Shown: positions 1-62,837 of the stretch, one piece after another | How the letters are laid out: each line of letters begins with the position of its first letter | Numbering within the stretch: the first letter of the stretch is position 1 | From: Acidobacteria bacterium UBA7540 | GTDB taxonomy: Bacteria > Acidobacteriota > Terriglobia > UBA7540 | NCBI GenBank assembly: GCA_002478145.1 | Contig: DLMI01000129.1 | Coordinates: 4,099-68,098, forward strand | Direction of reading: 5' to 3' | DNA: 64,000 nucleotides | The notes under the pieces: model-generated | What the model saw: only the letters and a program-made list of their open reading frames with translations | Database searches by the model: none | What the model was told of the DNA's origin: nothing | Made by a program: the position numbers and the translations under genes

Positions 1-1116
1 GGCAAACCAGTTGACGATCGAGGACCCTTCGAGGCCAGCCGCGGCGCTGAGAGTGAGCGTGGGGTAATAGGCCGTTTTGGCCACCCCGATTTCGGCGTTG
101 GCGGCGGCCATGCGCCGTTCCGCCGCGGCGATGTCGGGCCGGCGCTGCAACAAATCGGAGGGGACTCCCGCCGGGATCTTGGGCGGGGGCATATCCAGCG
201 GCGAGACGGGGATCGAGAAGGTCGATGCGGGCTGGCCTACGAGCGCGGCAATGGCATGTTCGAATTGGGCACGCTGCACTCCCACGTCGATGGCCTGTGC
301 CTGGGTGGTTTCAAGCTGCGTCGCCGCTTGCGCCACTTCCACTTTGGCCGCCAGCCCGCCGTTATACCGGTTGGTGGTGAGGTCCAGAGCTTTCTGGTAG
401 GCGACCACAGTGGAGTCAAGCAACTGCTTCTGCGCATCCAGCCCACGTAGCGCAAAGTAGTCGGCAGCCAGCTCCGCGTGAATACTCAGCCGGGCGGTTT
501 CCAAATCTGCCGCGCTGGCCAGGGCGCTGGCCGTGGCAGCTTGAACCGTGAGATGGATTCGTCCCCAGGCGTCCACCTCATAGGAAAGGTCGAAGGGCAA
601 TACGAAATCCCCCTGCGTTTGGCCATATTGGGGGCCGGCGTTGGGAGCGTTCTTGGAAAGTTGTTCCCCGGTAATGTTGGGACCGGCGCTGACCGTCGGA
701 TACAAGCCCGACCGATTGATACGAATCAGGTCACGCGCCTGGCGAAACTGCGCTTCTGCGACCTTCAGGTTTTGGTTCGAGACGTCGACACGCTCCTCAA
801 GGGCATTCAACTGCGGATCGTTGAAGATTTCCCACCACTTTCCGCGAATCACCTGGTCCTGAGGCTGGGACGCTTTCCATTCACTTTGCGGCCCGGCCGC
901 ACTGGGCGCAAGCTCCTTGTAGGCGGGTGGCGTCGGAACCGGGGGCTTTGCGTACTTGGGGCCGGGGGTGCAGGCGCTGGCAAAGAACAGTAGGCAGAAG
1001 GCAGATAGCAGCAGGCAGGTGGGTAATACGAAGTCAAAAGGCAAAGCGCAAAAGGCAAAAGGCAAGAACGGCCGGCTTTGACTTTTGCACTTTGCCTTTT
1101 GCCTTTTGACCTTCAT
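1..1116 (-). CDS. RND efflux outer-membrane lipoprotein, NodT/TolC family (3' end outside window)
   Basis: Outer-membrane channel of a tripartite efflux pump. 372 codons are visible and the frame stays open to base 1, so the C-terminus is missing. The reading contains a lipobox-like FFASAC at about residues 45-50, then a TolC-type body with coiled-coil helices (QLNALEERV, VAEAQFRQARDL) and the family-typical LLQRRPDIAAAERRM and YYPTLTLSAA. It starts 41 bp after the adaptor gene ends, so it is probably the last gene of the pump operon. The start is the ATG at 1116. The N-terminal 45 residues are odd: they are read from an AAAAGGC-type word palindrome and a GGCAGA-rich stretch, so the original start may have been replaced. 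The family call rests on motif recognition and is firm; the start is uncertain. Confidence 0.85.
   Translation of the reverse strand, partial: MKVKRQKAKCKSQSRPFLPFAFCALPFDFVLPTCLLLSAFCLLFFASACTPGPKYAKPPVPTPPAYKELAPSAAGPQSEWKASQPQDQVIRGKWWEIFNDPQLNALEERVDVSNQNLKVAEAQFRQARDLIRINRSGLYPTVSAGPNITGEQLSKNAPNAGPQYGQTQGDFVLPFDLSYEVDAWGRIHLTVQAATASALASAADLETARLSIHAELAADYFALRGLDAQKQLLDSTVVAYQKALDLTTNRYNGGLAAKVEVAQAATQLETTQAQAIDVGVQRAQFEHAIAALVGQPASTFSIPVSPLDMPPPKIPAGVPSDLLQRRPDIAAAERRMAAANAEIGVAKTAYYPTLTLSAAAGLEGSSIVNWFA
1033..1110. repeat. AAAAGGC word palindrome in the lipoprotein 5' end
   Basis: The left half repeats the word AAAAGGC and the right half repeats its complement GCCTTTT. The outer arms GTCAAAAGGCAAA are exact inverted copies. 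The element lies between the adaptor gene and the outer-membrane lipoprotein body and is translated as the basic start and part of the hydrophobic leader of the lipoprotein. Confidence 0.75.
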
Positions 1117-1157: not shown

Positions 1158-2390
1158 TCACTCCCCGCCCCAAGAACCCGCGCCCGGGGTAGCGCTGCGA
1201 ACTTCCTGACCTTCCACCAAAGAATCCGGCGGATTCGTAATCAGCTTCTCGCTTCCGTCGAGGCCCGATACCACTTCAACTTCCGTCCCGAAGTCCCGGC
1301 CCAGGGTTATAGGAATCAGGGCAGCGTGGCCGTTGCGGACCACCCCGACGCGCAAGCCTTCGGAACGAAAAATCAGACAGGTGACCGGGATGACGACCGT
1401 CGAAGTGGCAGAGGGAAGCTTCAAATGGACTTCGGCGTAAGCCCCGGGCAGGATTTCGCCCGTGGGGTTGGCGACGTCCACCTCCGCAAGCAGGGTGCGG
1501 GACGCCTGATCAATCGCCTCGGAGGTCCGCACCAGTTTGCCGGGAAAGCGGCGCCCGGGAAACTGCGGCATCGTTAAATAGGACTGGACGCCCGGGACCG
1601 CCGCGGGGGAGTAAGTTTGCGGCACATTCACGTAGACGCGCAGGGTGTTGATGGCCGCCACATGAAACAATTCCTTGGCGCCGCTGCCGCTTCCAGAACC
1701 AATGAGCTGTCCGATATCGGTATTGCGCGCCGTGAGCACCCCGTCGAAAGGCGCATAAACCTTTTCAAAGGATTGTAGTTGTTCCAGACGCTTCACGTTG
1801 TCCGCGGCGGAGTCCACCATGGCCTTTTTGGCGTGAGCGTCACCCACAGCGTTATCAACATCCTGCTTGGCCACGGAATCGCTCTTCAGCAGGAACTCAT
1901 AGCGGGCGGCGGTGGTCTGCGCCAGATCGTAGTTGGCCTTGGCCGTTGCCAGTTCTGCCCGCGCCTGCTGGAGTTGCTGATCCAGTTCGGGCGTATCGAT
2001 GTCCGCCAGAAGCTGGCCGTCCTTTACCCTGCCGCCGATGTCCACGTACCAGCGCTTCAGATAGCCGCTCGTACGCGCATAAATCGGCGCGTCGATGAAG
2101 GCCTGGATGTTCCCTGGCAATACGATTTCTTCCCGCGGCGCGCCTCGCTTGGATTGAGCCAGCGAAACCGCGGGCACGGCGAGATCGCGCGTGTCGGCTT
2201 TCACGTCGGCAGCGGCGCGGGCACGAGTGGTAATGCCCCTGTAAACGACGGCGCCCGCGACAATTAAGAGAACCGCCAGCCCGAAGATGACTTTGCCCGC
2301 CCCGGATGACGGGGGCCTTTGGCCCGGCAGGCCAGGACCCGCGTTCTGCCCGTCGGGGCTCTCAATGTCGAAACTTTCCTCAACGCTCAT
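1158..2390 (-). CDS. RND efflux periplasmic adaptor (HlyD/MFP family)
   Basis: Membrane-fusion subunit linking the inner-membrane RND pump to the outer-membrane channel. 410 aa. There is a single N-terminal membrane anchor (VIFGLAVLLIVAGAVVY, about residues 34-50), a barrel-sandwich half (YARTSGYLKRWYVDIG), a coiled-coil hairpin rich in Gln and Ala (about 135-205), the second lipoyl half (VYAPFDGVLTARNTDIGQL) and beta-barrel/membrane-proximal domains ending near TNPPDSLVEGQEV. Length and order match the family. It lies between the pump gene, separated by a 141-bp spacer holding a GATCGG palindrome, and the outer-membrane gene, all leftward. The substrate cannot be told from sequence. Confidence 0.93.
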   Translation of the reverse strand: MSVEESFDIESPDGQNAGPGLPGQRPPSSGAGKVIFGLAVLLIVAGAVVYRGITTRARAAADVKADTRDLAVPAVSLAQSKRGAPREEIVLPGNIQAFIDAPIYARTSGYLKRWYVDIGGRVKDGQLLADIDTPELDQQLQQARAELATAKANYDLAQTTAARYEFLLKSDSVAKQDVDNAVGDAHAKKAMVDSAADNVKRLEQLQSFEKVYAPFDGVLTARNTDIGQLIGSGSGSGAKELFHVAAINTLRVYVNVPQTYSPAAVPGVQSYLTMPQFPGRRFPGKLVRTSEAIDQASRTLLAEVDVANPTGEILPGAYAEVHLKLPSATSTVVIPVTCLIFRSEGLRVGVVRNGHAALIPITLGRDFGTEVEVVSGLDGSEKLITNPPDSLVEGQEVRSATPGAGSWGGE

Positions 2391-2401
2391 TACGTCCTCC
2401 A

Positions 2402-2542
2402 GGATCGGGTGATCGGAAGATCGGGAGATCGGGCGAACAAAAACCTACGCGTCTGCAAGATGTTTCCTGCTCGTCCGATCACTCGGCCAACCGATCTCCC
2501 GATCATCCGATCTGTTCACCCGATCTTCCGATCACCCGATCC
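2402..2542. repeat. GATCGG word palindrome with perfect 24-bp arms
   Basis: Bases 2402-2425 are the exact reverse complement of 2519-2542. Further imperfect GATCGG/CCGATC words fill both flanks of the central spacer. The right arm overlaps the last codons and stop of the RND pump gene (stop at 2532-2534), so the element supplies the end of that protein. RNA from the operon could fold it into a very long hairpin between pump and adaptor. Confidence 0.85.
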
Positions 2543-5500
2543 TTCTTCTGCCGTGCACAACGCTGAACACGGTGGGAACAAAGAACAGCGTCGCCACCGT
2601 GGCAAACAGCAGGCCGCCGATCACCGCCCGGCCCAGTGGGGCATTTTGCTCGCCGCCCTCACCCAGGCTCAGAGCCATGGGTACCATACCGATAATCATG
2701 GCCAGCGCCGTCATGATGACGGGGCGAAAACGAGTGAACCCGGCGTCCAGTGCCGCCCCCGTGGCATTGACGCCTTCTTGCAATTTTTCCTTGGCAAAAC
2801 TCACCACCAGAATGCTGTTGGACGTGGCGACACCCACGCACATGATGGCGCCGATCATGGCCGGCACGCTGAAGGTGGTGTGAGTGGCGAACAGGAACCA
2901 GAGGATCCCCGCCAGCCCCGCCGGCAAGGCGGAAATAATGATCAGCGGGTCCAGCCAGGATTGGAAATTCACCACGATCAAGAGATAAACCAGCACAATC
3001 GAGAAGACTAGCCCGGCCAGCAGTCCCGAGAAGGACGAGCGCATGGTCTCAATCTGCCCGCGCACAATGGTCCGCGAACCGCGCGGCAGATCCTTCTGGC
3101 TCTCACCCACCATGCGGTCGAGGTCGCGAGCCACACCGCCCAGGTCTCTTCCCTGCACGGCGCCATAAATATTGACCACGGGCTGAACGTTGTAATGCGA
3201 GACTGCGGCCAGCGATGCGCCGCGGCTGATGGAGGCGAGGTTCCCGAGGATTTGCGGGGGAGCGCCGGCGGAGCTCGTAATGGGAATGTTTTGCAGATCC
3301 TGGAGCGCTTCCACCCGGTATTGCGGCGTTTGAGTTGTGACACTGTAGCTGACGCCGGTCCGCGGGTCCAACCAGAAGGAGGGAGAAGTCTGGAAGCTCC
3401 CACTTAGGGAAACCAGAATGTCGCTGGCGACGTTGCTGGTCGTAAAGCCCACCTGCGCCGACCGGGTACGGTCAATGTCAACCTGGAGCCGGGGCAGGTT
3501 GAAAGGTTCCTGAATGCGCAAGTCAACCGCGCCGGGAATGTATTTGAGTTTACGCATCAGCCCCTCGGCGAATCGCCGATTGGCGGTCAGGTCTTGGCCC
3601 ACCACCTGGACATTGATGGGCGCCGGGAGGCCGAAATTCAGAATCTGGCTGACCATGTCCGAGGGCAGGACGTAAAACGTCACGCCAGGGTATTCCTGAG
3701 CCAATTTGAGCCGCAGCCTGCGGAGGTACTCCGCCGTGGGGTGATGGTCTTCCGACAGCGCGACCATAATGTCAGCATCCCCGGTGCCGATGGGAGCCGA
3801 GTTGCTGTAAACGAGATTCACGCCGCTGTAGGGCAACCCGATGTTATCGATAATGCTGGTGACTTCCTGGGGAGGGATCTCTTGCCGAATTGAATTCTCG
3901 ACGAAATCGCAAAGCCGCGCCGTCTCCTCGATGCGCGTGCCGGTGGGAGCCCGCAGGTGCAGGGTGAACTGACCACTGTCAACCTTGGGGAAAAAGTCCT
4001 GGCCAATCAAGGGAATCAGCAAAAACGAAGCCGCGGCGGCGCCTAAGACCCCCAGTGCGAGCCAGGCAGGATGGCGCAGGCAAGTCCCTAGCCAACCCTT
4101 GTACCTCCCCCGCAGCCCTTCGAAAAGGTGCTCAAATCTTATTTGCAGTCGCGCCAAAAAGTGGCGCTGGGCCTCGGCTTCCAGATTCTGGGCGTCGTGC
4201 TCGTGGCCGCGGAGCAGGTATCGCGCCATGGTCGGCACCAAGGTCCGGGACAGGAGGTAAGACGCCAACATGGCGAAGCTTACCGCTTCCGCCAGGGGGA
4301 TAAAGAGGTGCCGGGCAACCCCGGTCAGGAAAAACATGGGCACGAAAACAATGCAGATGGCGAGGGTCGAGACAAAGGCCGGAACGGCAATCTGCGACGC
4401 GCCATCCAAAATCGCCACCAGGATTTGTTTATTCATGGCGATGTTGCGGTTGATGTTTTCGACTTCAACCGTGGCGTCGTCCACCAGAATCCCCACCGCC
4501 AAAGCGAAGCCTCCTAGCGTCATGATGTTGATGGTTTCCCCGAGCGCACTGAGCACGACCAGGGAGGTTAGGATGGAAAGCGGGATGGAGACCGCGATAA
4601 TGATGGTGCTCCGCCAGCTCCCTAAGAACAGCAGAATCATCGCCGCGGTAAGGAGAGCGGCAATAAGCGCCTCCCTCACTACACCTTTAATGGCGGCCCG
4701 CACAAAGATGGACTGGTCATTGAGGTAGTGGAGTTGCAATTGCGGCGGCAAACCCTTCTGAATGACCGGCAGCTCCGCTTTGATTCGGGAGATGATATCC
4801 AGAGTCGAGGCATTCCCGGTTTTCATCGCCGTCATCAATGCCGCCCGTTGGCCGTTAACGCGCACGATGTTGGTCTGGGGCGGGAAGCCATCGCGCACAT
4901 AGGCGACGTCGCGAACATAAATGACCGTGCCACCGGAGGTTTTTACCGGCAAATCGTTGAGTTCTGCCGTCGTCCGCGGGCTGGCGTTGGTCTCAACGTC
5001 ATACTCATAGCGGCCGATTTTGGAAGTCCCGGAAGGAAGAATCAGGTTCTGGGCGCTGATGGCATTCACGACGTCGACGGGCGAAAGTCCCTTGGATTGC
5101 ATGGCGGCAGTGTTAAGGTCCACCTGCACTTGACGTTGCTTTCCCCCGTAGGGCCATGGTATGGCGGCGCCTTCCACGTCGGCCAGTTGGACGCGGATGA
5201 AGTTCGCGCCCAAGTCAAACAACCGCTGCTCAGAAAGCCCTTGCCCGGAAAGTCCCAATTGCAGAATGGGCACCGTGGATGCACTGTACTGCATAATAAA
5301 CGGAGGGGTGGTGCCGGGCGGGAATTGCCGAAGCTGTGTCTGCGACATTGCCGTCACCTGGCTCATCGCCATGGCAATGTTGGCGCCCGGCTGGAAGAAA
5401 ATCTTGATGACGGCGATGCCATTCAGCGATTCGGACTCGATGTGCTCAATGTCATTCACCGTCAAGGTCAGGGAACGTTGATTGATAACCGCGATTCGGT

Positions 5501-5681
5501 TCGCCATCTGGTCAGCAGAGAGGCCCGTGTAGCCCCACAGGACGGTTACAACCGGGATGTTGATGTTGGGAAAAATATCCTTGGGGGTGCGAATGATCGA
5601 CAGGTCGCCCAAAATCATGATGACTATAGCCATCACTATGAAAGTGTATGGCCGTCGCAATGCTAATCGGACTATCCACAT
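2532..5681 (-). CDS. RND multidrug/metabolite efflux inner-membrane permease (AcrB/MdtB-like)
   Basis: Proton-driven inner-membrane pump of the tripartite system. 1049 aa, the normal length for hydrophobe/amphiphile RND pumps. Visible: TM1 at the N-terminus (YTFIVMAIVIMILGDLSII), porter domain, and a TM2-TM6 block from about residue 335 with the TM4 proton-relay pair in GILVDDATVEVENINRN. A second porter half follows, then a second TM block ending with FATVATLFFVPTVFSVVHG. The gene starts 53 bp after the LysR-type gene on the same strand and is followed by adaptor and channel genes, so the four probably form one operon. Substrates are unknown. The last residues come from the palindrome at 2402-2542. 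Confidence 0.95.
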   Translation of the reverse strand: MWIVRLALRRPYTFIVMAIVIMILGDLSIIRTPKDIFPNINIPVVTVLWGYTGLSADQMANRIAVINQRSLTLTVNDIEHIESESLNGIAVIKIFFQPGANIAMAMSQVTAMSQTQLRQFPPGTTPPFIMQYSASTVPILQLGLSGQGLSEQRLFDLGANFIRVQLADVEGAAIPWPYGGKQRQVQVDLNTAAMQSKGLSPVDVVNAISAQNLILPSGTSKIGRYEYDVETNASPRTTAELNDLPVKTSGGTVIYVRDVAYVRDGFPPQTNIVRVNGQRAALMTAMKTGNASTLDIISRIKAELPVIQKGLPPQLQLHYLNDQSIFVRAAIKGVVREALIAALLTAAMILLFLGSWRSTIIIAVSIPLSILTSLVVLSALGETINIMTLGGFALAVGILVDDATVEVENINRNIAMNKQILVAILDGASQIAVPAFVSTLAICIVFVPMFFLTGVARHLFIPLAEAVSFAMLASYLLSRTLVPTMARYLLRGHEHDAQNLEAEAQRHFLARLQIRFEHLFEGLRGRYKGWLGTCLRHPAWLALGVLGAAAASFLLIPLIGQDFFPKVDSGQFTLHLRAPTGTRIEETARLCDFVENSIRQEIPPQEVTSIIDNIGLPYSGVNLVYSNSAPIGTGDADIMVALSEDHHPTAEYLRRLRLKLAQEYPGVTFYVLPSDMVSQILNFGLPAPINVQVVGQDLTANRRFAEGLMRKLKYIPGAVDLRIQEPFNLPRLQVDIDRTRSAQVGFTTSNVASDILVSLSGSFQTSPSFWLDPRTGVSYSVTTQTPQYRVEALQDLQNIPITSSAGAPPQILGNLASISRGASLAAVSHYNVQPVVNIYGAVQGRDLGGVARDLDRMVGESQKDLPRGSRTIVRGQIETMRSSFSGLLAGLVFSIVLVYLLIVVNFQSWLDPLIIISALPAGLAGILWFLFATHTTFSVPAMIGAIMCVGVATSNSILVVSFAKEKLQEGVNATGAALDAGFTRFRPVIMTALAMIIGMVPMALSLGEGGEQNAPLGRAVIGGLLFATVATLFFVPTVFSVVHGRRRIG

Positions 5682-12393: not shown

Positions 12394-13590
12394 TTACCTC
12401 ATGACTAAAAACGCGTACGGCATTGCGGGCCGCAGGAAGCCGTGAGACACACCGCTCGCGTCAATGTAGTATCCCGTGATCGCCCCCACTGGGTTGATAG
12501 TCAAGGGAAAAGTGCCCTGGTCGGTGCCTGTGCCTGCACCCGGAACATCGAACTTGGTGATTATGCCGTCAGGAGCGCGCACGAAGCCGTGAGACACATC
12601 GTCCCCGTCCACATAGAAACTCGTGATCGCTCCCGCCGGGTTCATGATCATGTACCCTATGAGGCCCTGCCAGGCGCCTGTGCCCGCCCCAGGGACATCG
12701 AAACTTCTGACTGTGCCGTCGGGAGCGCGCAGACAGCCATGCCACACATTGTTCGCATCTCCGTAGGTACATGAGATCGTCCCCTCCGGGCTGATGCTGT
12801 AGCCCTGGGTGCCCTGCCAGGCGCCTGTGCCTGCGTGCGGATCGTCGAAGGTAACAAACCTGCCATCCCAAGTGCGCAGGTAGCCGTGAAACACACTGTT
12901 CGCATCTTGGTAACTTCCCGTGCTCGCCCCGTCCGGGATGATGGCGTTGAATACGCCGGGGTCAGTGCCCTCGCCGGCGATCGGAGCCATGCCCGGAGGA
13001 TCAAATGTGGTCAAGGTGCCGTCAGGGGCGCGCAGGAGGCCGTGCCACACCCCGCTCGCATCTTCGTAGGTCCCCAGGATCAACCCCGCCGGGGTGATGC
13101 TGAGACCTGCGGTGCCTTGCCAGGCGCCTGTGCCCGCCCACGGAGCCTCGAAGGTCGTGAACTTGCCGTCAGGTGCGCGCAGGTAGCCGTGATACACGTT
13201 GTTCGAGTCTACGAAGCACCCCGTGACCGCCCCCTCCCGGTTCATGCCCCGGGCCTCGATAGTACCCTGGCCGGGGCCTTTGCCCGCGCCCGGAGGATCG
13301 AACTTGGTGATTTTGCCGTCAGGGGCGCGCACGAAGCCGTGATACACATTGCCCGCGTCAATGTACCACCCCGAGATCGCCCCGTCCAGGATGACGCCGA
13401 ATGGAAAAGTACCCTGGCCGGCGCCTGTGCCCGCCCAAGGAGCGTCGAATGTGATGATGGTGGGCCTGGGCTCGTGAGCGCTCCCGGAAAGGCCCAGCCC
13501 CAGCATGCACAGGGCCAGGCAAAGGGCGAGCGCTCCTTCCCGTCGCACTGCCGAACAGAATTGGTAAAAAGTAATATGGTTCGTCATCAT
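12394..13590 (-). CDS. Secreted protein of seven approximately 50-residue repeats (HAF-type beta-propeller-like)
   Basis: 398 aa with AAGGAG 8 bases before the ATG at 13590 and a signal peptide to about residue 38. The rest is seven tandem units with consensus TFDPPGAGTGxxQGT, then xGAITGxYxDAxxVxHGFLRAPDG. At DNA level they repeat about every 145-150 bp. Repeats of this kind (HAF family) are common in Acidobacteriota and probably build one extracellular beta-propeller. The last unit ends in PAMPYAFLVMR. The ligand is unknown. Unit number may vary by slippage because the repeats are similar at DNA level. Confidence 0.85.
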   Translation of the reverse strand: MMTNHITFYQFCSAVRREGALALCLALCMLGLGLSGSAHEPRPTIITFDAPWAGTGAGQGTFPFGVILDGAISGWYIDAGNVYHGFVRAPDGKITKFDPPGAGKGPGQGTIEARGMNREGAVTGCFVDSNNVYHGYLRAPDGKFTTFEAPWAGTGAWQGTAGLSITPAGLILGTYEDASGVWHGLLRAPDGTLTTFDPPGMAPIAGEGTDPGVFNAIIPDGASTGSYQDANSVFHGYLRTWDGRFVTFDDPHAGTGAWQGTQGYSISPEGTISCTYGDANNVWHGCLRAPDGTVRSFDVPGAGTGAWQGLIGYMIMNPAGAITSFYVDGDDVSHGFVRAPDGIITKFDVPGAGTGTDQGTFPLTINPVGAITGYYIDASGVSHGFLRPAMPYAFLVMR

Positions 13591-13864: not shown

Positions 13865-16276
13865 ATGCCTGACCCGCCCCTCGTCTCGCATGTTGTCCAC
13901 TTCGGGGTCTTCGAAGCTGACCTTCGCTCCGGAGAGCTGCGCAAGCACGGGCTCAAGGTCAAAATTCAGGAACAACCCTTTCGAGTTTTGGCCATGCTGC
14001 TGGAGCAGCCGGGCCAGATCGTCACGCGCGAGGAACTGCGCAAGAAGCTTTGGCCTACCGACACATTTGTGGACTTCGAGCACGGTCTGAACGCCGCCAT
14101 CAACAAGCTCCGCGCGGCGCTGGGCGATCCCGCAGACAACCCGCGTTGTGTAGAAACCTTGCATCGCCGGGGTTATCGCTTTATCGCGCCGTTGGATGGA
14201 AGGGCAAGGCAAGAACTGCCCCTGCCGACAGCCGGCCCGAGGGCGGTTCACGAATCGGCCCTACGAAGACAATGGGATGTCGCGGTGGTGGGCAGGAAAC
14301 TCTGGAAGGTTCTTGTTCCCGCTGCCCTGATCGTTGTCGCTGGCACCATCGGGAGAACGTTGTACTTCCGCTCGCGCCAAGCCGCGACTCGCCTGACCGA
14401 CAAAGACACCATTGTTCTTTCCGATTTCATCAACAAGACGGGCGATGAGGTATTCGACGACACGCTGAAGCAGGGACTCTCGGTACAGCTTGAGCAATCG
14501 CCCTTTCTCGCCCTAGTTTCCGACCGCAAGGTGAATGAGACGTTGAAGCTGATGGGCCGTCCCGCCGGTGACCGGTTGACGCCGGAGGTCACCCGCGAAG
14601 TCTGCGAGCGCACGGGCAGCACGACGATGCTGACCGGCTCGATTGCGGGGCTGGGCAGCCAGTACGCGATTGGCCTGAAGGCAGAGAACTGCGAGACGGG
14701 CGACGTGCTGGCGGAAGCGCAGGAGCAGGCGGCGGGCAAGGAAGCGGTGCTCAAGGCTCTGGACGCCGCTGCGGTCAGTTTGCGCGGCAAGCTGGGCGAG
14801 TCGCTCAGCACGGTGCAGAAATACGCCACGCCGGTGGAGGAAGCGACCACGCCATCCCTGGAGGCGCTGAAAACCTACAGCCTGGGACTAAAGAGGTACT
14901 CTGCGAAAGGGGACATAGCCGCGCTGCCCTTCTTCCAACGGGCGGTGGACCTTGACCCGAATCTTGCCATGGCCTACGCCTTGATGTCGTCTGTCTACTG
15001 GGACCTAAACGAAGTGGGGCCGGCGGCCGAAAATGCACGCAAGGCTTACGACCTGCGGGAGAAGGTGAGCGAACGGGAGCGGTTCTGGATCGAGGGGAAC
15101 TACTACCTCACCGCGACGAGAGAGCTGGAGAAGGCAGCACAGGTATACGAACTGTGGCAACAGACCTACCCGAGAGACCCCACGCCTTACAGGGGCCTGG
15201 GACTTACTGCCATCGCCCTGGGAAACTTGGAAAAGGCATTGGAGGAATTTCGAGAGGCGATGCGCCTGGAGCCAAATGATGCGAACAACTATATCTGCCT
15301 CGGCTACGCCTACACGACCCTCAACCGGCTGGACGAGGCGGAGGCGGTGTACAAGCAGGCGGAGGAGCGCAAGCTGGAGGGCGAGTACCTACTCCTGAAC
15401 CACTACTTCGTGGCTTTTCTGAAGGGCAACGCGGCGCAGATGGCGCAGTTGGTCTCAGCCGCCATGGGCAAGCCGGGCGCGGAAGACATGCTGCTGGCCA
15501 CGCAAGCGGACACGGAAGGTTGGTACGGCAAGCTGAAGAACGCGCACGAGCTGACCCGGCGGGCGATGGATTCAGCCCAGCACAACGACGCCAAAGAGAG
15601 TGCGGCAACCTATCAGGCAGGGGCAGCGCTGTGCGAGGTGGAATCGGGAAACCGGGAGCAGGCGCGTGCCGAAGCCAATGCGGCGTTGAAGCTGGCCCCA
15701 AACCGCGATGTGCGGGCCATGGCGGCCCTGGCCCTGGCGCGGGCAGGGGATACGGCAGTGGCGGAGAAGCTGGCGGCTGAACTCGACAAGACCTTCCCGC
15801 TGGATACGCTGGTCCAAAGATATTGGCTGCCCACGATCCGGGCGGGCGTCGCCCTGGAACACAAAGACCTGAACCGGGCAATCGAACTATTGAAGGCGGC
15901 GAGCACGGTCGAACTTAGCGAACCAACGAACCTCGCGATGTCCCTGTGCCCAGTCTATTTGCGTGGAGAAGCCTATCTCATGCTCCACGACGGCAACGCA
16001 GCCGCAGCGGAATTTCAGAAATTCATTGACCACCGAGGACTCGTGGTGAACTTTCCCTGGGGTGCGCTGGCACGCCTCGGACTGGCGCGTGCCTACGCTG
16101 TAGAGGCGGGTTTATCCCGCCACGGCGAAAATGGCGGCATAAAGCCGCCGCTACAGCCGGATGCCCTCGCCAAAGCCCGCGCCGCCTATCAGGATTTTCT
16201 CGCCCTTTGGAAAGACGCCGACCCCGACATCCCCATCCTGAAGGAAGCCAAGGCGGAATACGCAAAGCTGAAATAA
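13865..16276 (+). CDS. Winged-helix (OmpR/CadC-type) DNA-binding, transmembrane, TPR protein
   Basis: 803 aa, ATG at 13865 after GGGAG. Residues 10-105 are an OmpR-type winged helix ([51 protein letters not shown]). A transmembrane helix lies at about 145-165 ([15 protein letters not shown]). A FlgO/adenylate-cyclase-associated-like domain follows ([20 protein letters not shown]), then many TPR units to the C-terminus. This CadC-like plan implies a membrane-bound regulator sensing outside or protein partners. Residues 746-764 are encoded by a GTAG...CTAC element inside a TPR region. A Ser/Thr kinase gene follows on the same strand. Confidence 0.9.
16100..16154. repeat. Intragenic GTAG...CTAC paired-hairpin element, 55 bp
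   Basis: Opens with GTAG at 16100, contains the hairpins GGCGGGTTTATCCCGCC and GGCGGCATAAAGCCGCC, and closes with CTAC at 16151-16154. It lies wholly inside the winged-helix/TPR gene, open in all codons, and is translated as residues 746-764. Confidence 0.85.
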
Positions 16277-16280
16277 TCCC

Positions 16281-16339
16281 GGCGCTCCGGCCCTCGCTTT
16301 CAGGACCTCCTGCGCCGCATGAATTTCCCGTCGTAGTTG
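16281..16339 (+). repeat. Direct repeat flanking the kinase gene, copy 1
   Basis: About 83% identical by eye to 19551-19609, sharing GCTTTCAGGA and TGCGCCGCATGAA. It starts 4 bp after the TPR gene stop; the other copy starts 38 bp after the kinase stop, in the same orientation. Confidence 0.7.
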
Positions 16340-16410
16340 CGTATTGTAGTTGCGCATTGACTTGCCCGTGGTTGCGGCCTAAGATGCACCTCGAAGGCGG
16401 TTCCCTCCCT

Positions 16411-19400
16411 ATGATCGGCACGACCGTCTCGCACTACCGCATCCTGGAGAAGCTGGGCGGCGGGGGCATGGGTGTGGTCTACAAGGCCCAAGACACCAAG
16501 CTCAAGCGCACCGTCGCCTTGAAATTCCTGCCTGAAGAACTCTCCAAGGACCGGGAAGCCCTGGAACGATTTCGGCGCGAAGCCCAGGCTGCCTCCGCGC
16601 TCAACCATCCCAACATCTGCACTATTCACGCTATTGAGGAGCACGAGGGCCAGCCCTTCATTGACATGGAATATCTGGAGGGGCAAACCCTGGAGCATTT
16701 GGTGGATGTAGGGGCGCGCGGCGCGCGCCCAACGGGGCAGGGCGAACGCCGTTCGCCCCTACCAATCGATACCCTGCTCGACTTGGCCATTCAGATTGCG
16801 GATGCGCTGGACGCGGCCCACTCGAAGGGGATCATCCATCGGGACATCAAGCCAGCGAACATTTTCGTGATCCCGCGAGGCGGGACGGCCCAAGCGAAGG
16901 TCCTGGACTTTGGTTTGGCCAAGCTGGCGCGGGAAAAACGGGGGCTGGGTGCTAGGGGCTGGGGGCTGGGGAAAGAAGCCCTGCAAGAGGTGCCAACCGC
17001 GACTTACGGAACCGTGGAGGAGCAATTAACCAGCCCGGGCGCGGTGATGGGAACGGTCGCCTACATGTCGCCGGAGCAGGCGCGTGGAGAAGAAGTCGAC
17101 GCCCGCACAGACCTCTTCAGCTTCGGGGTGGTGCTCTACGAGATGGCGACAGGTCACCCGGCCTTTTCCGGGACAACTCCCGTGCTCATTTTTGATGCGA
17201 TTCTGAACCGCCCGCCCACCTCGCCAGTGCGGCTGAATCCCGACTGTCCTGCCGAGTTGGAACGCATCATCAACAGGGCGCTGGAGAAACAGCGCTCAAT
17301 GCGCTACCAGAGCGCCACCGACCTGCTAGCCGACCTCAAGCGTTTCCGGCAGCGGATCATTTCGCGTCCGTCAGCCGCCGGGGCCGTCGCTCAGTGGCTC
17401 CGAAAGCCGCAAGTGGCGATTCCGGCGCTTCTTGTTCTTCTCGTCCTGGCCGTCGGAGCAGGATGGTGGATTCATCGAAGTGCCCGGGTCCGCTGGGCCA
17501 GGGAAGAAGCTCTTCCGGAGATCGAGCGGCGTATTGGAAACAACGATGTTTGGCGGAATTTGACTGATGCGTACAGCCTTGCGGGGAAAGCGGAAGAATA
17601 CATTCCGCATGATCCCAAGCTGGCCGAACTCTTCTCAAAGTGTTCCTTGAACATCAACATCACGACTGAACCTTCCGGGGCAAAGATCTATATGAAGGAA
17701 TATAAGGCTCCAGATAGCGAATGGAAGTATCTGGGTGTCTCTCCGATCAAAAAGATCAGAGTGCCTGTCGGAATCTTCAGATGGAAACTGGAAAAGGATG
17801 GCTATGAGACAGTGATGGCAGCATCCTCGACCTGGGACATTGATAGAGAGGCGAAATTAAGTCCAGGTGATCTCCTAAGAGTACTGGACAAGAAAGGCAG
17901 CATTCCGCCGGGCATGGTGCGGGTACCAGGAGCGGAAACCGAGGTGGGGAAATTGAGTGATTTCTTCATCGACAAGTATGAGGTAACCAACAAACAATAC
18001 AAGGAATTCATCAACAGCGGTGGATACAGAAACAGGAAGTACTGGAAACAGAAATTCACGAAAGAAGGAAGGGAACTGCCTTGGGAACAGGCGGTCAAGG
18101 GATTCATAGACCAAACGGGTCAACCGGGCCCTGCGACTTGGCAGGCGGGAGATTACCCGGAGGGGCAGGGTGATTATCCGGTATCAGGAATTAGCTGGTA
18201 CGAGGCGGCAGCGTATGCGGAATTTGTCGGGAAGAACCTGCCAACTGCGTACCATTGGAATATGGCGAGGGGTGGATATACCACACTGATTCAGGTACCT
18301 CAACTCGGAGGTTACGCCATATTCGCGCCCTTTAGTAACTTTAGAGGCAAAGGTCCCGTCCCGGCGGGGAGTCTTGCGGGAATAACGTCCTACGGCGCCT
18401 TTGACATGGCGGGGAATGTAAGAGAGTGGTGCTGGAACGAGACCCCGAAGGGAAGATTGATCAGGGGAGGCGCCTGGGACGACAACACCTATATGTTCAG
18501 TGCGTTGAGTCAAGCTCCGCCCATGGATCGTTCCGCCAGGAACGGGTTTCGGTGCGTTCTCTATCCTGATCTCGGGAAGATCCCCGCGTCAGCGTTTCAG
18601 ATGGCAAAATCAACGGGCGATCCGTTTTTCGGTGAAACAGTAGATTTTTACAAAAACAAACCGGTCCCGGATTCAATTTTCCAGATTTACAAGGAGCAGT
18701 TTTCCTACGACAAGACTGATTTGAAGGCCCGCGTGGAATCGAGGCAAGAAACCTCGGAGTGGATTCAAGAGAGAATAACCCTTGATGCCGCCTATGGCAG
18801 TGAACGGGTCATTGCCTATCTTTTTCTCCCCAAGAATACAGTGCCTCCCTATCAAACGGTCATCTATTTTCCCGGCTCTGCTTCCTGTTATCAAAAATCC
18901 AGCGAGCACCTCGAAAGTTATTATGAATTCCCGATGTTCCTTTCTTTTATCGTGAAAAACGGTCGGGCGGTCCTCTATCCTGTCTATAAAGGGACCTTCG
19001 AGCGCGGAAATGATAGGCTGGCTGCCCTCCTCGAGGGGGACGGGAGTTCTCATCAATACACCGAGTTGCTCATTCAAGATGTCAAAGATTTCAAAAGATG
19101 CGTCGACTATCTGGAGACCCGTCAGGATATCGACAGTAAAAAGCTCGCCTATTACGGAATGAGTTGGGGAGGGCAGCTAGGAGCGATCATCCCCGCCGTG
19201 GAGGAACGCCTCAAAGCCAGTGTGTTGTTGGCAGGAGGCTTCGGGCAACTTCCGCGCCCTGAAGCAAATCAATTCAACTATGTGACCCGAGTGAAGACGC
19301 CAACCCTGATGTTAAACGGCAAATACGACACGCTTTTGCCACTCGAGACATCATCAAAGCCCATGTTTGAACTTTTGGGAACTCCGGCTCCCGACAAGCA

Positions 19401-19512
19401 GCAGAAAGTGTACGACACTGACCACATCCCCCCCAGAAATGAGTTCATCAAGGAAACTCTGGCCTGGCTCGACCGCTACCTCGGTCCAGTAGAGAAGAGT
19501 GCGGGGCCTTGA
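16411..19512 (+). CDS. Transmembrane Ser/Thr kinase fused to PEGA, SUMF1-like and alpha/beta-hydrolase domains
   Basis: 1033 aa from the ATG at 16411, the usual [11 protein letters not shown] beginning. Cytoplasmic kinase: Gly loop [13 protein letters not shown]38, HRD at 143-145, DFG at 166-168, [13 protein letters not shown] helix lies at about 335-355. A PEGA domain (about 414-475) is followed by a SUMF1/FGE-like domain (about 500-720; [31 protein letters not shown]) that lacks the paired catalytic Cys of true formylglycine enzymes. The C-terminus is an alpha/beta hydrolase with S918 in GMSWGG, D973 and H1005. Outer domains presumably sense or act in the periplasm. Two insert-like stretches interrupt the kinase: residues 100-118 and a Gly/Trp-rich run after DFG. 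Confidence 0.9.
16708..16762. repeat. Intragenic GTAG...CTAC paired-hairpin element in the kinase gene, 55 bp
   Basis: GTAG at 16708-16711, a GGGCGCGC/GCGCGCCC hairpin, a GGGCGAACG/CGTTCGCCC hairpin, and CTAC at 16759-16762. It has the same length and layout as 16100-16154 with different stem sequence. It is translated in frame as kinase residues 100-118, just after the hinge-region motif and before the helix leading to HRD. Confidence 0.85.
16939..16972 (+). repeat. GGGGCTG word repeat inside the kinase activation region
   Basis: Four imperfect tandem copies of GGGGCTG/GTGCTAG, read as a Gly/Trp/Leu-rich insert shortly after the DFG motif. Confidence 0.6.
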
Positions 19513-25605: not shown

Positions 25606-28023
25606 ATGGGTAAATCGCTGGTCATTGTCGAATCGCCGGCCAAGGCAAGAACGATCAACAAATACCTTGGATCGAACTATCTGGTGAAGGCCTCGCTGGG
25701 GCACGTGTTGGACTTGCCCAAAAAGGACCTGGGCGTGGACCTCGCCAACAATTTCAAACCAACCTACATTACGATTCCCGGCCGGAAGGCTATCATCTCG
25801 GAGTTGAAGTCCGCGGCAGCAAAATCAGATGCCATTTACCTGGCTGCCGACCCGGACCGGGAAGGCGAAGCCATCTGCGCCCACTTGCGCGAGTTGCTGA
25901 ACGGCAAGAAGCGAAAATTCTTTCGCGTACTCTTCAACGAGATCACTCGCGACGCCATCCTCGAAGCTTTCAAGATTCCGGGAGAGATTGACTCCAAGCT
26001 GGTGGACGCGCAGCAGGCGCGGCGCATTCTGGACCGTCTGGTAGGCTACCAGGTGAGCCCGCTGCTTTGGGACAAGGTGAAGCGGGGAATCTCGGCGGGG
26101 CGTGTCCAAACCGTGGCCTTGCGCTTGATCGTCGAGCGCGAGCGGGAAATTCAGGCCTTCCAGAAGAAGGAATACTGGACCATCAGCGCCCGCGTGGAAG
26201 GCAAGAACCCTCCGCCCTTCGACGCGCGCCTGGTGAAGTTCCGGGGCAAAGACCTGGAGATTCCCGACCAGGCGACAGCCGACCGAATCGTCAACGCGAT
26301 TAAGGCTGCGAATCTGGTGGTGGAGTCGGTGACCACCACGGAGAAGCGGAAGTATCCGGTGCCGCCGTTCATCACCAGCAAGCTCCAGCAGGAAGCCGTC
26401 CGCAAGCTCCACTTCCCTGCCAGAAGAACCATGTTGCTGGCCCAGCGTCTTTACGAGGGCCTGGAGATTGGTGACGAAGGCTCGGTCGGCCTCATTACCT
26501 ACATGCGGACAGACTCCACTCGTGTGGCGGAAGGCGCCCTGAGTGCCGTGCGCGGTTACATCCTGACCACTTTCGGGAAAGATTATCTTCCCCCTGCACC
26601 CATACACTATAAGAGCAAGAAAGGCGCCCAGGATGCCCACGAAGCCATCCGGCCAACCGACGCGACCCGAAACCCCGACTCCATCAAGAGGTACCTCAGC
26701 CCGGACGAGTTCAAATTGTATAAGCTCATCTGGCAGCGTTTTGTGGCCTCGCAAATGACTCCGGCGGTCTTTGACCAGACCACGATCGACATCTCTGCCG
26801 GCGACTACTTGCTGCGCGCTACAGGCTCGGTGGAGAAGTTCAATGGCTTCCGCGCCGTTTACGAAGAAAGCAAGGACGAGAAGGCGGAAATGGAGGAAGA
26901 TGAGGAACTGAAACTCCGCCTGCCGCAGGTTGAGCAGGGCGAAAGGGTCAAGCTGCGGAAGATTCTACCGGAACAGCACTTCACCGAACCTCCCCCACGA
27001 TTCAACGAAGCCACACTAGTGAAAGCGTTGGAGGAAAAAGGCATCGGCAGGCCCTCCACCTACGCCACCATCCTCTCCATCATCCAGAACCGCGAGTACG
27101 TGGAGAAACTTCAGGGCCGTTTTTATCCCTCAGAACTCGGGATGGTGGTGAGCGATCTGTTGGTGAAGAACTTCAGCGACATCTTCGAGGTAGCTTACAC
27201 CGCCCGCATGGAAGAAGAGCTGGACGAAGTCGAAGAAGGGAAACTCACCTGGACGGAAGCTCTCAGTGAGTTCTACAAGAAGTTCAAGAAAGATTTGCGG
27301 GTCGCCGAACGCGAGATGGTGGACATCAAGGGAGAAGGCATCCCGACCGAGGTGAAGTGTGAGAAGTGCGGCAAGCCCATGGTGATCCGGCTGGGACGCA
27401 ACGGCCAATTCCTCTCCTGCACGGGCTATCCCGAGTGCGATGGAACCAGCGACCTGCCGCCTGAAATGGCTGCGAAATACGCCAGTGGCGGGCCTCCGGC
27501 GCCCGAACTCCCAGAACAAGCCTGCGAAAAATGCGGCAAGCCCATGGCCGTCAAGCGCGGCCGCTTCGGATTCTTCCTGGCTTGCACGGGTTATCCCGAA
27601 TGCCGGAACACCAAGAAAATCGTGATGAAGGAAGGCGCCGCGACGGCCGTCAGCGACACGCTGCTGGAGGAGAAGTGTCCTGAATGCGGCAGCCACCTGG
27701 TGCTCAAGCACGGCCGCTACGGGCAATTCACCGCCTGCAGCAACTATCCGCAATGCAAATACGTGAAGCGACAGACCCTCGGTATTCCCTGTCCCGAAAA
27801 AGGCTGCACGGGTGAACTGGTCGCGCGCCGCACGCGCAAAGGCAAGACCTTTTACGGCTGCAGCCGCTACCCCAACTGCAAGTTCACCGCCTGGGACAAA
27901 CCCGTCAACGAACCCTGCCCCCATTGCGGCTATCCCCTCCTGCTCGAGAAGCATAAGAAGGACGGCCCCCCCATCCGCTACTGCCCGAATGAAGCCTGTA
28001 AATTCCAGCGGGCGGTGGCGTAA
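25606..28023 (+). CDS. topA: DNA topoisomerase I
   Basis: 805 aa. Type IA enzyme relaxing negative supercoils. TOPRIM at the N-terminus (SLVIVESPAKARTINKYLG, AADPDREGEAI), catalytic Y299 in LITYMRTDST, then the toroidal domains (RPSTYATILSIIQNREYV). The C-terminus carries five Cys-rich zinc-ribbon units, from CEKCGKPMVIR at about residue 585 to CPHCGYPLLL near the end. Full length for the family. It follows dprA by 12 bp and precedes trmFO across a word palindrome. Confidence 0.97.
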   Translation: MGKSLVIVESPAKARTINKYLGSNYLVKASLGHVLDLPKKDLGVDLANNFKPTYITIPGRKAIISELKSAAAKSDAIYLAADPDREGEAICAHLRELLNGKKRKFFRVLFNEITRDAILEAFKIPGEIDSKLVDAQQARRILDRLVGYQVSPLLWDKVKRGISAGRVQTVALRLIVEREREIQAFQKKEYWTISARVEGKNPPPFDARLVKFRGKDLEIPDQATADRIVNAIKAANLVVESVTTTEKRKYPVPPFITSKLQQEAVRKLHFPARRTMLLAQRLYEGLEIGDEGSVGLITYMRTDSTRVAEGALSAVRGYILTTFGKDYLPPAPIHYKSKKGAQDAHEAIRPTDATRNPDSIKRYLSPDEFKLYKLIWQRFVASQMTPAVFDQTTIDISAGDYLLRATGSVEKFNGFRAVYEESKDEKAEMEEDEELKLRLPQVEQGERVKLRKILPEQHFTEPPPRFNEATLVKALEEKGIGRPSTYATILSIIQNREYVEKLQGRFYPSELGMVVSDLLVKNFSDIFEVAYTARMEEELDEVEEGKLTWTEALSEFYKKFKKDLRVAEREMVDIKGEGIPTEVKCEKCGKPMVIRLGRNGQFLSCTGYPECDGTSDLPPEMAAKYASGGPPAPELPEQACEKCGKPMAVKRGRFGFFLACTGYPECRNTKKIVMKEGAATAVSDTLLEEKCPECGSHLVLKHGRYGQFTACSNYPQCKYVKRQTLGIPCPEKGCTGELVARRTRKGKTFYGCSRYPNCKFTAWDKPVNEPCPHCGYPLLLEKHKKDGPPIRYCPNEACKFQRAVA

Positions 28024-28029
28024 AAATAA

Positions 28030-28103
28030 GTTGAGAGTCGACAGTCGAGGGTCGAGAGTCCGTTGAGACCTTGGACCTCAACTGTTGACTGCCGACAGGC
28101 ATA
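28030..28103. repeat. GTCGAGAG word palindrome between topA and trmFO
   Basis: Left side: repeated GAGAGTCGACAGTCGAGGGTCG-like words. Right side: CCTCAACTGTTGACTGCCGAC as imperfect complements. It occupies most of the 123-bp topA-trmFO spacer. Confidence 0.6.
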
Positions 28104-30494: not shown

Positions 30495-30568
30495 GCTAGA
30501 AGAGCAGGTGTCAGGGGCCAGGTCCCAGGGGTCAGGCGCCAGGGGGCAGGTGACAGGTGCTAGCCCGC
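30495..30568. repeat. CAGGGGTC word repeat after xerC
   Basis: About eight imperfect copies of (C)CAGGTGTCAG/GCCAGGG words, bounded by GGCTAG and CTAGCC. It lies just after the xerC stop in the convergent spacer with the GH3 gene. Confidence 0.65.
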
Positions 30569-51180: not shown

Positions 51181-51345
51181 CGGTGACAGGCGAAAAGCGC
51201 GAAAGGGCCAGAGGCTTTGAGGGGAAGGGGATAAAACCGGACCTGCCTGGTGGAACCCTTTGAATCTCGGTCCCTTTCGCTTTTCACCCTTTTCCTTCTT
51301 TTTCCCCTCATGGGCGGCTTGTGACTTCTGCTCGTCGCTACTCGT
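51181..51345. repeat. GCGAAAAG word palindrome between convergent genes
   Basis: Left: GTGACAGGCGAAAAGCGCGAAAGGG and GAGGGGAAGGGG words. Right: CCCTTTCGCTTTTCACCC, TTTTTCCCCTC and CGTCACTG complements in reverse order. It fills the space between the small barrel gene and the transglutaminase gene and could act as a bidirectional terminator hairpin. Confidence 0.6.
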
Positions 51346-61831: not shown

Positions 61832-62218
61832 ATGGAAAGCGCATCAAACGCCTGTCTCAGCCACCGGCACGACACCCAAAGGGCAAGTCGCCCCGAGGGT
61901 TTCTCGCTCCTCGAGATGATGATGGTGGTCACGGTGATCCTGATCGTGGCTTCCATCTCTGTCCCTATCTACACGACCGCCGTGGTGCGCGCGCGTGAGG
62001 CCGTTCTCCGCGACCACCTCTTTGAAGCTGTCGGCTCTCAGCGGTCAGCTTTCAGCGAGCATGCCGATAGCTGAGAGCTGAGGGCTGAAAGCGTGCCCTG
62101 GCAGGAGGAGAAGGAAGACGCGACGCTCTCACCAAAGCAAACGGCGCTGGGGATTGTGGACGTCCACAGCGGCTCGAACCTCGTTTCACTCGAAGGCACT
62201 CCGTACAGCAGTTGGTAA
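61832..62218 (+). pseudogene. Broken type IV prepilin-like (pseudopilin) gene
   Basis: The N-terminus from 61832 keeps a prepilin cleavage/methylation motif (PEG, then FSLLEMMMVVTVILIVASIS). The same frame at 62095-62218 gives WQEEKEDATLSP, GIVDVHSGSN and EGTPYSSW, which is the usual C-terminus of acidobacterial pilin-like proteins as I remember them. The middle third (about 40 residues) is missing and is replaced by a CTCAGC word palindrome carrying an in-frame TGA at 62072-62074. Confidence 0.75.
62026..62092. repeat. CTCAGC word palindrome inside the broken prepilin gene
   Basis: Left: GTCGGCTCTCAGCGGTCAGC and TTTCAGC words. Right: GCTGAGAGCTGAGGGCTGAAAGC complements. It occupies the place of the missing central pilin codons. 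Confidence 0.75.
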
Positions 62219-62837
62219 CTAAAGGATTCAGGATTCAGGATTCAGAAGTCAGGAACGGGTAGCGCGCCGGCTGACGCAGACTGCACCTCTGTGCTTCAGC
62301 GGTTCGTAGCCTCCAGCGCCTATCCTCGCGCCAAGCTCTTTGGTAGTCACCGCTTCCGCTGCGGCCTGATGAAAGTTCTCCGGCAATTTCGGCGGCACGG
62401 GCTTTCTGCTGATCGTATAGTCGCAGAGCTTTAGTCTGCGCCAGCCTGCGGGGTGACTCACGGGTTATAGGCTAGATAAGTAACCGACAAAGAGGGCCAC
62501 CCGCCGCCCCGTGTGGCAAGATGACACACATATGCGCTTGCCAGCATATATCCCGCGATTGCCCCAACCCCTTGAAAAACATTGGGATAAGCGGCCGCGG
62601 AGGTGGAACACTCCACGAAAAATGAGACGAATGGAGAAAATGGAAATCTCGCCCCTGGGCACGGCTACTCATCTTTAACCCCTTCGGGGTTCAGCCGCAC
62701 TCGTCAATTCTCACCGCTTGATTTGCGTTCACAGGCAGCCTAAAATGTCTCTCAACAAGGATGCTGCCCTTGCGCCGCAGCGGGCTTTTATGGGCGACCT
62801 GAATTGACCTCGCGTCCTTGCCAAACAGGCTCGGACC
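62219..62837. other. Non-coding accessory spacer
   Basis: About 620 bp. It contains three tandem GGATTCA words (about 62224-62244), copy 2 of the 95-bp dispersed repeat, and an AACCCCTTCGGGGTT hairpin near 62677-62691. Short frames here show no motifs. Confidence 0.6.
62352..62446. repeat. 95-bp dispersed repeat, copy 2
   Basis: Ungapped partner of 9604-9698 (12 differences counted by eye), in the same orientation. The terminal hairpin is less perfect here. Confidence 0.8.

Follow-up and report, generated by a model that had tools for sequence, protein, structure and literature searches.

The spacer at positions 2402-2542 of the DNA studied here (64,000 nucleotides, analysed as a whole and called the window) carries a short word in imperfect tandem copies followed by its complement, and loci of the same build with other words lie elsewhere in the window. 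What kind of sequence is this, and what joins loci that do not share a word? The original prediction described at least seven such loci (1033, 2402, 16939, 28030, 30495, 51181 and 62026, perhaps also 62224) as palindromes between genes, each made of a private word of six to nine bases that no homology search would group, and offered local template switching or a selected hairpin function as their source. Our analysis points to a different answer: the locus at 2402-2542 and its kin are probably gene-less miniatures of larger IVP elements, the full form of which carries a gene of the family PF05635 (here called the IVP gene).

Word arrays in the window

Each of the eight loci was scored against 1000 dinucleotide shuffles. 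At seven of them the word period lay above all 1000 shuffles, with period 7 at 1033, 16939, 28030, 30495, 62026 and 62224 and period 8 at 2402; the word periodicity of 51181 was not significant against these shuffles (P 0.065). The complement of the word, sought within 160 nt 3' of it, was significant at four loci (0/1000 shuffles at 2402 and 62026, P 0.001 at 1033, P 0.010 at 28030), weak at 51181 (P 0.072; fold z -1.08) and absent from the 160 nt downstream of 16939, 30495 and 62224 (P 0.88, 0.99 and 0.99). Predicted folds were far better than those of shuffles at 1033, 2402, 28030 and 62026, with z values from -4.2 to -9.7. The eight proposed word palindromes therefore stand as periodic words in seven cases and as inverted arms in four, and 51181 drops out. 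In the full window we found 11 segments of period 7 or 8, compared to a mean of 0.4 in 20 shuffles; four of the 11, namely both arms of 1033 and of 2402, had an inverted partner with a score of at least 16 (shuffle mean 0.0). The periods 5-6, 9-10, 11-12 and 13 gave 4, 3, 2 and 1 segments, none of them with an inverted partner at this score. Taking the results per locus and window-wide together, the unit is a short tandem one as proposed, with a length of 7 (once 8) and not any length between 6 and 9. The word detector and the score cut-offs are custom scripts, and the cut-offs were set after inspection of the first IVP-gene flanks; therefore, the control sets count for more than the absolute rates. 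An Rfam scan of the window gave no match to any family.

The whole candidate miniature element (2402..2542, no strand assigned) occupies the spacer between a gene for a membrane-fusion protein (HlyD_D23; 1158..2390, minus strand) and a gene for an AcrB-type RND pump (2532..5681, minus strand). Its left arm (2403..2436, plus strand) consists of four imperfect copies of the octamer GATCGGGT/A, with a period-8 score of 18 that was reached by 0 of 1000 shuffles, and then the inner flank GAACAAAA. After a loop without any trace of an IVP gene (2437..2490), the right arm (2491..2541, plus strand) carries the complementary words CCGATCTC, CCGATCAT, CCGATCTT and CCGATCAC. The arms are 96% complementary over 28 nt and the predicted RNA fold reaches z values of -9.7 and -8.2 on the two strands. 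A second candidate miniature (1031..1113, no strand assigned; fold z -5.5 / -6.4) lies between an outer-membrane-factor-like gene and the membrane-fusion gene, with AAAAGGC arms at 1031-1065 and 1077-1113 and a loop of about 12 nt. Both have terminal inverted repeats and lack a long ORF, which is one of the criteria for a MITE, a gene-less derivative of a gene-bearing element.

The position between genes that had been proposed for the loci holds for 1033 and 2402; 16939 lies in a protein-kinase ORF and 62026 in a pilin-like reading frame. The former is a heptamer array of GGGGGCT in 4.6 copies (16940..16971, plus strand) without an inverted partner, in frame in the ORF at 16207-19512. In alignments with PknB, residues 142-173 of this ORF (about 16930-17025, some 32 residues) are unmatched versus 6 PknB residues, and the in-frame array lies near the DFG motif of the kinase domain, which it lengthens by about 25 residues compared with PknB. 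The latter has heptamer arms AGCTGTC / AGCTGAG (62026..62092, no strand assigned; fold z -4.2), and by eye the pilin-like frame ends at a stop within the element. Close by, 62223..62252 (plus strand) holds AGGATTC in 4.4 copies, again without an inverted partner. The 5' spacer of a GidA-family gene contains a GTCGAGA array with a weak complement (28029..28090, no strand assigned; period-7 P <0.001, inverted P 0.010, fold z -5.4). Directly 3' of the stop of a phage-integrase-family gene lies an array of CAGGTGC/CAGGGGT without an inverted partner (30505..30559, plus strand). The weak candidate GCGAAAAG (51181..51300, no strand assigned) was significant neither as a word nor as a hairpin.

Some further features of the window were observed alongside. 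The genes on the two sides of 28023-28063 are found on different contigs in G001 and G003, so that this array may mark a rearrangement point. The 27-nt segment 30569-30595 has an identical copy in G003 (contig C249), and three places in G001 resemble it at 90-91%; hence a further dispersed sequence adjoins the 30495 array. At the end of the GidA-family ORF lies a perfect 34-nt inverted repeat, TGTCATTCCGAGCGAAGCGAGGAATCTCGCTCTG, with an 18-nt loop and without a word period (29472-29557), and 12526-12831 is a 150-nt tandem unit in two copies.

Word families in sister genomes

Evidence at genome scale came from relatives of the window, among them L001, L002 and L003 (from three Acidobacteriota MAGs, with G001, G002 and G003 as the corresponding whole genomes). 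The relatives were found with the pump protein of gene 2532-5681, which is 92%, 86% and 85% identical in L001, L002 and L003. Dispersed copies of the window words were seen in the sister genomes G001 and G003. For AAAAGGC there were at least 64 matches in G001 and at least 56 in G003, which are lower bounds with 40 of 80 and 40 of 78 candidates scored; GATCGGG gave 20 matches in G001 and 5 in G003, and in all these counts several matches fall on one copy. Moreover, ordinary blastn aligned 2402-2542 with six G001 copies, contrary to the claim that such loci cannot be grouped by a homology search. Five aligned G001 copies have the inner flank GAAYAAR just inside the 2402 arm in common, and 2402-2542 belongs with gene-less G001 copies that share this flank.

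The idea of a private word per locus was not upheld, since sister genomes also contain the words of 1033, 2402 and 30495. The same words at many loci there (also in G312) are what the original prediction had named as speaking against it, and they make the words those of dispersed repeat families. The loci of the window are thus several dispersed families with one design. The core of the earlier idea, a class united by its design of a short tandem word, often with an inverted partner, was confirmed, and the words vary from family to family and from one orthologous spacer to another. The spacer that separates the pump gene from the membrane-fusion gene carries GATCGGGT in the window, ATCGGGCC in L001 and GTAGGGA/TCAGTAG in L003. 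The next spacer (1033) has AAAAGGC in the window and a diverged but related set in L003, and the spacer after the integrase gene (30495) holds other arrays in G001 and G003, as seen by eye. Orthologous spacers therefore remain occupied and their words change.

A PF05635 gene between word arms

In L001 a decayed small ORF lies between the ATCGGGCC arms. This ORF gave PF05635, the S23p / 23S_rRNA_IVP four-helix bundle family, as a lead, and such a protein gene bracketed by word arms had been missed by the earlier reading. PF05635 had 46 matches, spread over all seven relatives, and 14 named control genomes gave no match. Among the first 30 PF05635 genes, nearly every one was flanked by arrays that were inverted from side to side and had individual words. 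In the first set of 56 loci the inverted-repeat score had a median of 24, compared to 10 for 189 control ORFs, and 41/56 loci exceeded the 99th percentile of the controls. A period-7 score of at least 14 was reached at 37/56 loci versus 4/189 control ORFs and a period-8 score of at least 14 at 11/56 versus 0/189; the other periods from 4 to 12 never exceeded 3/56 loci. From the Acidobacteriota we fetched 121 of 176 distinct matches, mostly the stronger ones, and dropped L085, L090 and L132 for short flanks. Inverted word arms with a score of at least 18 were present at 96 of the resulting 118 loci, as against 4/194 control ORFs and 6/187 in genomes having the gene. Among the 22 loci below this score, 12 have an array on at least one side and 10 have none. 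Word arms thus bracket the gene, lying about 56 nt before and about 51 nt after the conserved PF05635 domain, and G outnumbers C in the 5' arm at 76/87 loci.

The gene itself shows a bias between codon positions. In 21 gene pairs with at least 60% protein identity, positions 1, 2 and 3 differ by 0.30, 0.19 and 0.64 per site, as expected if selection keeps the protein. A representative PF05635 protein matched one solved structure, 2gsc (XCC0516; E 1e-23), which is a pentamer. We know of no function for the S23p/PF05635 family. Likeness of the words rises with protein identity: the words were alike in 5/8 pairs at 65-80% identity, in 11% of 163 pairs at 50-65% and in 3.6% of 1201 pairs at 35-50%.

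Matches to PF05635 above the cut-off were found in 29/60 Acidobacteriota genomes, in 26/39 genomes of the phylum of a Verrucomicrobiota MAG and in 33/200 genomes of the phylum of a Nevskiaceae MAG. The arms passed at 21/32 Verrucomicrobiota loci (L324 and L331 skipped at contig edges, L341 and L342 left out below the family cut-off) and at 23/28 Pseudomonadota loci (L357 dropped for a short flank, L373 left out as partial), both counted without separate controls in these phyla. In addition, a PF05635 protein occurs in 26 plasmid records, mostly of cyanobacteria; arms were present at 7 of the 10 plasmid loci read from these records, that is 5/8 cyanobacterial loci and the single Gemmatirosa and Azospirillum loci. 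One of the plasmids, pANA02 of Anabaena sp. 90 (L143), has an S23p gene with heptamer arms in a type I-D CRISPR-Cas operon, where it separates cas6 from cas4. In a Kofleriaceae MAG (G070; L305 and L311) we noted by eye S23p genes with 6-base words of the types CGCAAA and CGTGGA, which suggests that the unit length may vary by lineage.

The gene at the focal spacer and across genomes

The remnant in L001 was compared with L458, an IVP element elsewhere in G001 that has no internal stop. Positions 10836-11180 of L001 match the start of this gene with 81% identity over 122 nt and its end with 73% over 107 nt; the arms are alike, and about 166 nt of the gene are missing between. According to this match, the orthologue of the 2402-2542 spacer in L001/G001 contains an IVP element that has ATCGGGCC words and an internal deletion. 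The remnant had no Pfam or local-profile match, and the assignment is based on the DNA match to L458 and on a 30-residue blastp match. For GATCGGGT itself, the related word ATCGGGCC was the only one met on an IVP gene. The word of 1033, AAAAGGC, stands on both sides of an IVP gene in G016 (L289) and likewise in G003 (L464), in the second case with an inverted score of 16, just below the cut-off of 18. Within the window, tblastn over the whole length found no IVP gene (best E 0.011), and a local profile run in six frames found no PF05635-like match in the 2402-2542 loop (best E 0.49 over all loci tested).

Arrays and gene co-occur across genomes. We counted 115 word arrays in 508 kb from 17 genomes with at least three matches, versus 9 in 377 kb from 13 genomes without the gene, and an inverted partner accompanied 51 of the 115 and 2 of the 9. 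The samples comprised at most 40 kb per genome; the 17 genomes are 16 of the 18 that qualified plus G003, and the 13 were taken from 29 without the gene. Array density was about tenfold higher in the sampled genomes with the gene (Mann-Whitney P 4e-4, with kinship ignored). Exceptions occur on both sides: the gene-rich genomes G001 and G037 had no arrays in 15.9 and 7.0 kb, and 4 were found in G010, which has no gene. A 400-kb stretch of G032 held 32 word loci, 17 of them with inverted arms and mostly 70-200 bp long; it contained no IVP gene, and gene-less copies of G032 showed no clear remnant of one (best E 0.017). The word TCAGTTG stands at about seven G032 loci and also on an IVP gene elsewhere in G032, and the loops of same-word miniatures in this genome differ from each other. 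Words of gene-less arrays matched the IVP arms of their own genome best among 11 sets, in G032 with 0.56 versus at most 0.40 (43 arrays) and in G016 with 0.69 versus at most 0.38 (29 arrays), a lead that shrinks to 0.36 versus 0.30 and 0.30 versus 0.26 with equal-sized samples. As a separate observation, L279 5836-6043 (query 2336-2544) is a repeat of about 208 nt, of which both G032 and G313 contain many copies (75-90% identity).

Turnover among congeners

Six congeners of G032 (G309-G314) were compared at orthologous sites; the words at the sites called E1, E2, L155, L186 and 30495 were named by eye. At the L186 site, G032 has TCAGTTG arms and the gene, G310 has gene-less TCTTTGG, G311 and G313 have gene-less GCTTAGA, G312 and G314 are empty and G309 has something different. 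At one and the same congener site, elements are hence present, absent or exchanged for others. By eye, no obvious target-site duplication was seen between filled and empty L186 sites. The E1 spacer holds TCAGTTG in G032, GGGCTTA in G313, TTTGTAC in G314 and G311, GTGATGA in G312 and G310 and another hairpin in G309. A comparison of words at one spacer, as the original prediction had suggested, therefore gave in six congeners three word types unlike that of G032, or a different hairpin. We also considered that the target site dictates the word; this is unsupported, as one orthologous spacer holds differing words in congeners. At L186 the words GCTTAGA and GTTTAGA of G311 and G313 recall GTTTAG of the empty site in G312.

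The E2 spacer is the main result against plain insertion. Both arms are present in G032, G314 and G309, the left arm only in G311, the right arm only in G312 and none in G313 and G310. The arms enclose old host spacer, which the armless G313 has as well (a 14-nt exact block, E 2e-4, with adjacent aligned blocks). Arms can thus surround host DNA, and neither arms around old sequence nor single arms are given by simple insertion. At the L155 site, G314, G309 and G313 (L428, L429 and L430) carry an inverted repeat with longer words, CAGATTACG-like, beside a surviving left heptamer array.

Origin of the word loci

The full form of an IVP element would comprise an array rich in G on the coding strand, a stretch of about 55 nt, the PF05635 / S23p gene, a stretch of about 50 nt and the complementary array. 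We propose that full elements are copied into new spacers and that copies may then lose the gene through internal deletion and persist as hairpins. Words would be carried along by the elements, form dispersed families in this way and drift in both arms jointly. Slippage would alter the copy number of the word, and correction from arm to arm within the hairpin may preserve complementarity during the drift of the word. This fits arms that match strongly inside an element but weakly from one related element to the next. Most miniatures would descend from full copies. The PF05635 protein may take part in movement or upkeep of the elements, as suggested by its conservation, its kinship to Avd and its constant location between the arms. 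Against the reading of 2402-2542 and its kin as miniatures we count the absence of an IVP gene from the window, the 22/118 loci that fail the arm test, the unpaired arrays at three of the eight loci, the 32 G032 word loci in a stretch free of IVP genes, the E2 spacer, the smaller own-genome lead in equal-sized samples, the exceptions G001, G037 and G010, the lack of a visible target-site duplication and the missing Pfam and profile matches of the L001 remnant.

A different order of events is conceivable, in which the arms come first: arrays arise by slippage, short-range template switching then makes the inverted copy, and the IVP gene is a passenger in the loops. We rate this as rather unlikely, although the E2 spacer, where the arms enclose older host DNA and two congeners have one arm each, speaks for such a copying model and leaves some probability to the local template switching of the original prediction. 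Arrays without a partner at 16939, 30495 and 62224 also speak for it, as do the dissimilar loops of same-word miniatures in G032 and the L155 spacer, which in three congeners retains only the left array beside an unrelated inverted repeat. However, an independent process should continue in genomes without the gene, and in those sampled arrays are about ten times rarer. The shared word and inner flank of the G001 copies of the 2402 family and the deleted IVP copy at an orthologous spacer are further results against this order of events.

The strong predicted folds at 1033, 2402, 28030 and 62026, and spacers that keep their occupancy despite a change of word, could also be understood if selection maintained the hairpins between genes as terminators, as processing sites or for the stability of mRNA, with the word design as a side effect. 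This seems improbable. No terminator-like site (stem and T run) was found at the arms of 1033 or 2402, which lends no support to a selected terminator role; the two such sites in 900-2700 both lie inside the pump gene, and shuffles gave a mean of 1.9. Furthermore, the copies at 1033 and 2402 stand between co-oriented efflux genes, other copies lie within the kinase and the pilin-like frame, and two congeners lack any element at the L186 site. REPINs are known miniature elements, and REP/REPIN-like elements mobilised by a RAYT transposase would likewise be small, dispersed, inverted and intergenic; we give this origin very little credence, because the words vary freely between families here and the bracketed gene is a different one, PF05635. 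That the loci are an artefact of assembly or binning is hardly credible: the window and many of its relatives are MAGs, but the layout recurs in many separate assemblies and in finished plasmids of Nostoc edaphicum (between ribonucleotide-reductase genes) and Nostoc sp. C052.

Beyond the reading as gene-less miniatures of IVP elements, one may speculate, as an idea that is more probably wrong than right by a wide measure, that the S23p/IVP system represents a class of mobile DNA whose ends are set by a period (7 or 8) and by complementarity instead of sequence. Its protein would recognise or build word hairpins and could place matching arms around its own gene or around host DNA, and words would be rewritten over time. 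If this long shot were true, the excess of seven-base repeats long noted in bacteria would for the most part be debris of the S23p system.

Comparison with known systems

The closest known arrangement is the intervening sequence (IVS) of 23S rRNA with an S23p ORF, which likewise has a PF05635 protein in a short segment with inverted ends. In one such IVS, tandem heptamers were described just 5' of the S23p start codon (PMC4990558, from the part available). Unlike these, the elements described here lie in spacers of protein genes and in ORFs, have word arrays at both ends and use many words, and most sampled word loci are gene-less, with dozens per genome. The locus 2402-2542 has the inverted terminal repeats and long stem of an S23p-type IVS but neither the S23p ORF nor a place inside a 23S gene; related full elements do carry the S23p (PF05635) ORF. 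The family also resembles Avd of diversity-generating retroelements in sequence and structure, as stated in the accessible part of PMC10053308.

Short tandem repeats of seven bases (STRR) have been described in Xanthomonas (GGGAATC) and Nostoc (GGGGA(C/T)T), both in PMC4692102, and in Beggiatoaceae (TAACTGA; PMC4679880). Similar to our loci, they are tandem 7-nt units, mostly intergenic and dispersed, at least in the portions of these papers at hand; by this criterion of a 7-nt unit, six of the eight window loci have period 7 and 2402-2542 has period 8. PMC4692102 also mentions in these portions that some heptamer pairs are inverted and that sites are kept with varying sequence. According to the same excerpts of both papers, heptanucleotide repeats outnumber all other longer simple repeats in many bacterial genomes that are rich in repeats, and are ascribed to polymerase slippage; the excerpts discuss slippage, quadruplexes and regulation and propose no protein gene or element. 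In the open-licence literature, as far as its text was accessible, we found no general link between the S23p gene and heptamer repeats, the nearest being the one IVS of PMC4990558. A tie between the two would give two puzzles one testable answer, namely that such repeats represent the termini of S23p elements and of gene-less copies derived from them, and the miniature reading would help to explain why seven-base repeats are abundant in some bacteria.

A related idea of a class defined by unit length and not by sequence is found in the repeats of constant size and variable sequence of Subirana and Messeguer (PMC8161180, PMC6749651), whose units are 20-21 and 52 nt; heptamer-derived satellites are merely mentioned in the parts available. 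With MITEs and REPINs, the loci described here share the form of small inverted-repeat DNA without a transposase that is tied to a larger gene-bearing form. They differ from both in that their ends have a fixed period instead of a fixed sequence and in that no known transposase gene is involved. With the gene and the heptamer repeats tied together, period and complementarity would serve as a simple element finder where a homology search with one word fails, and the tie would also predict which genomes are hosts.
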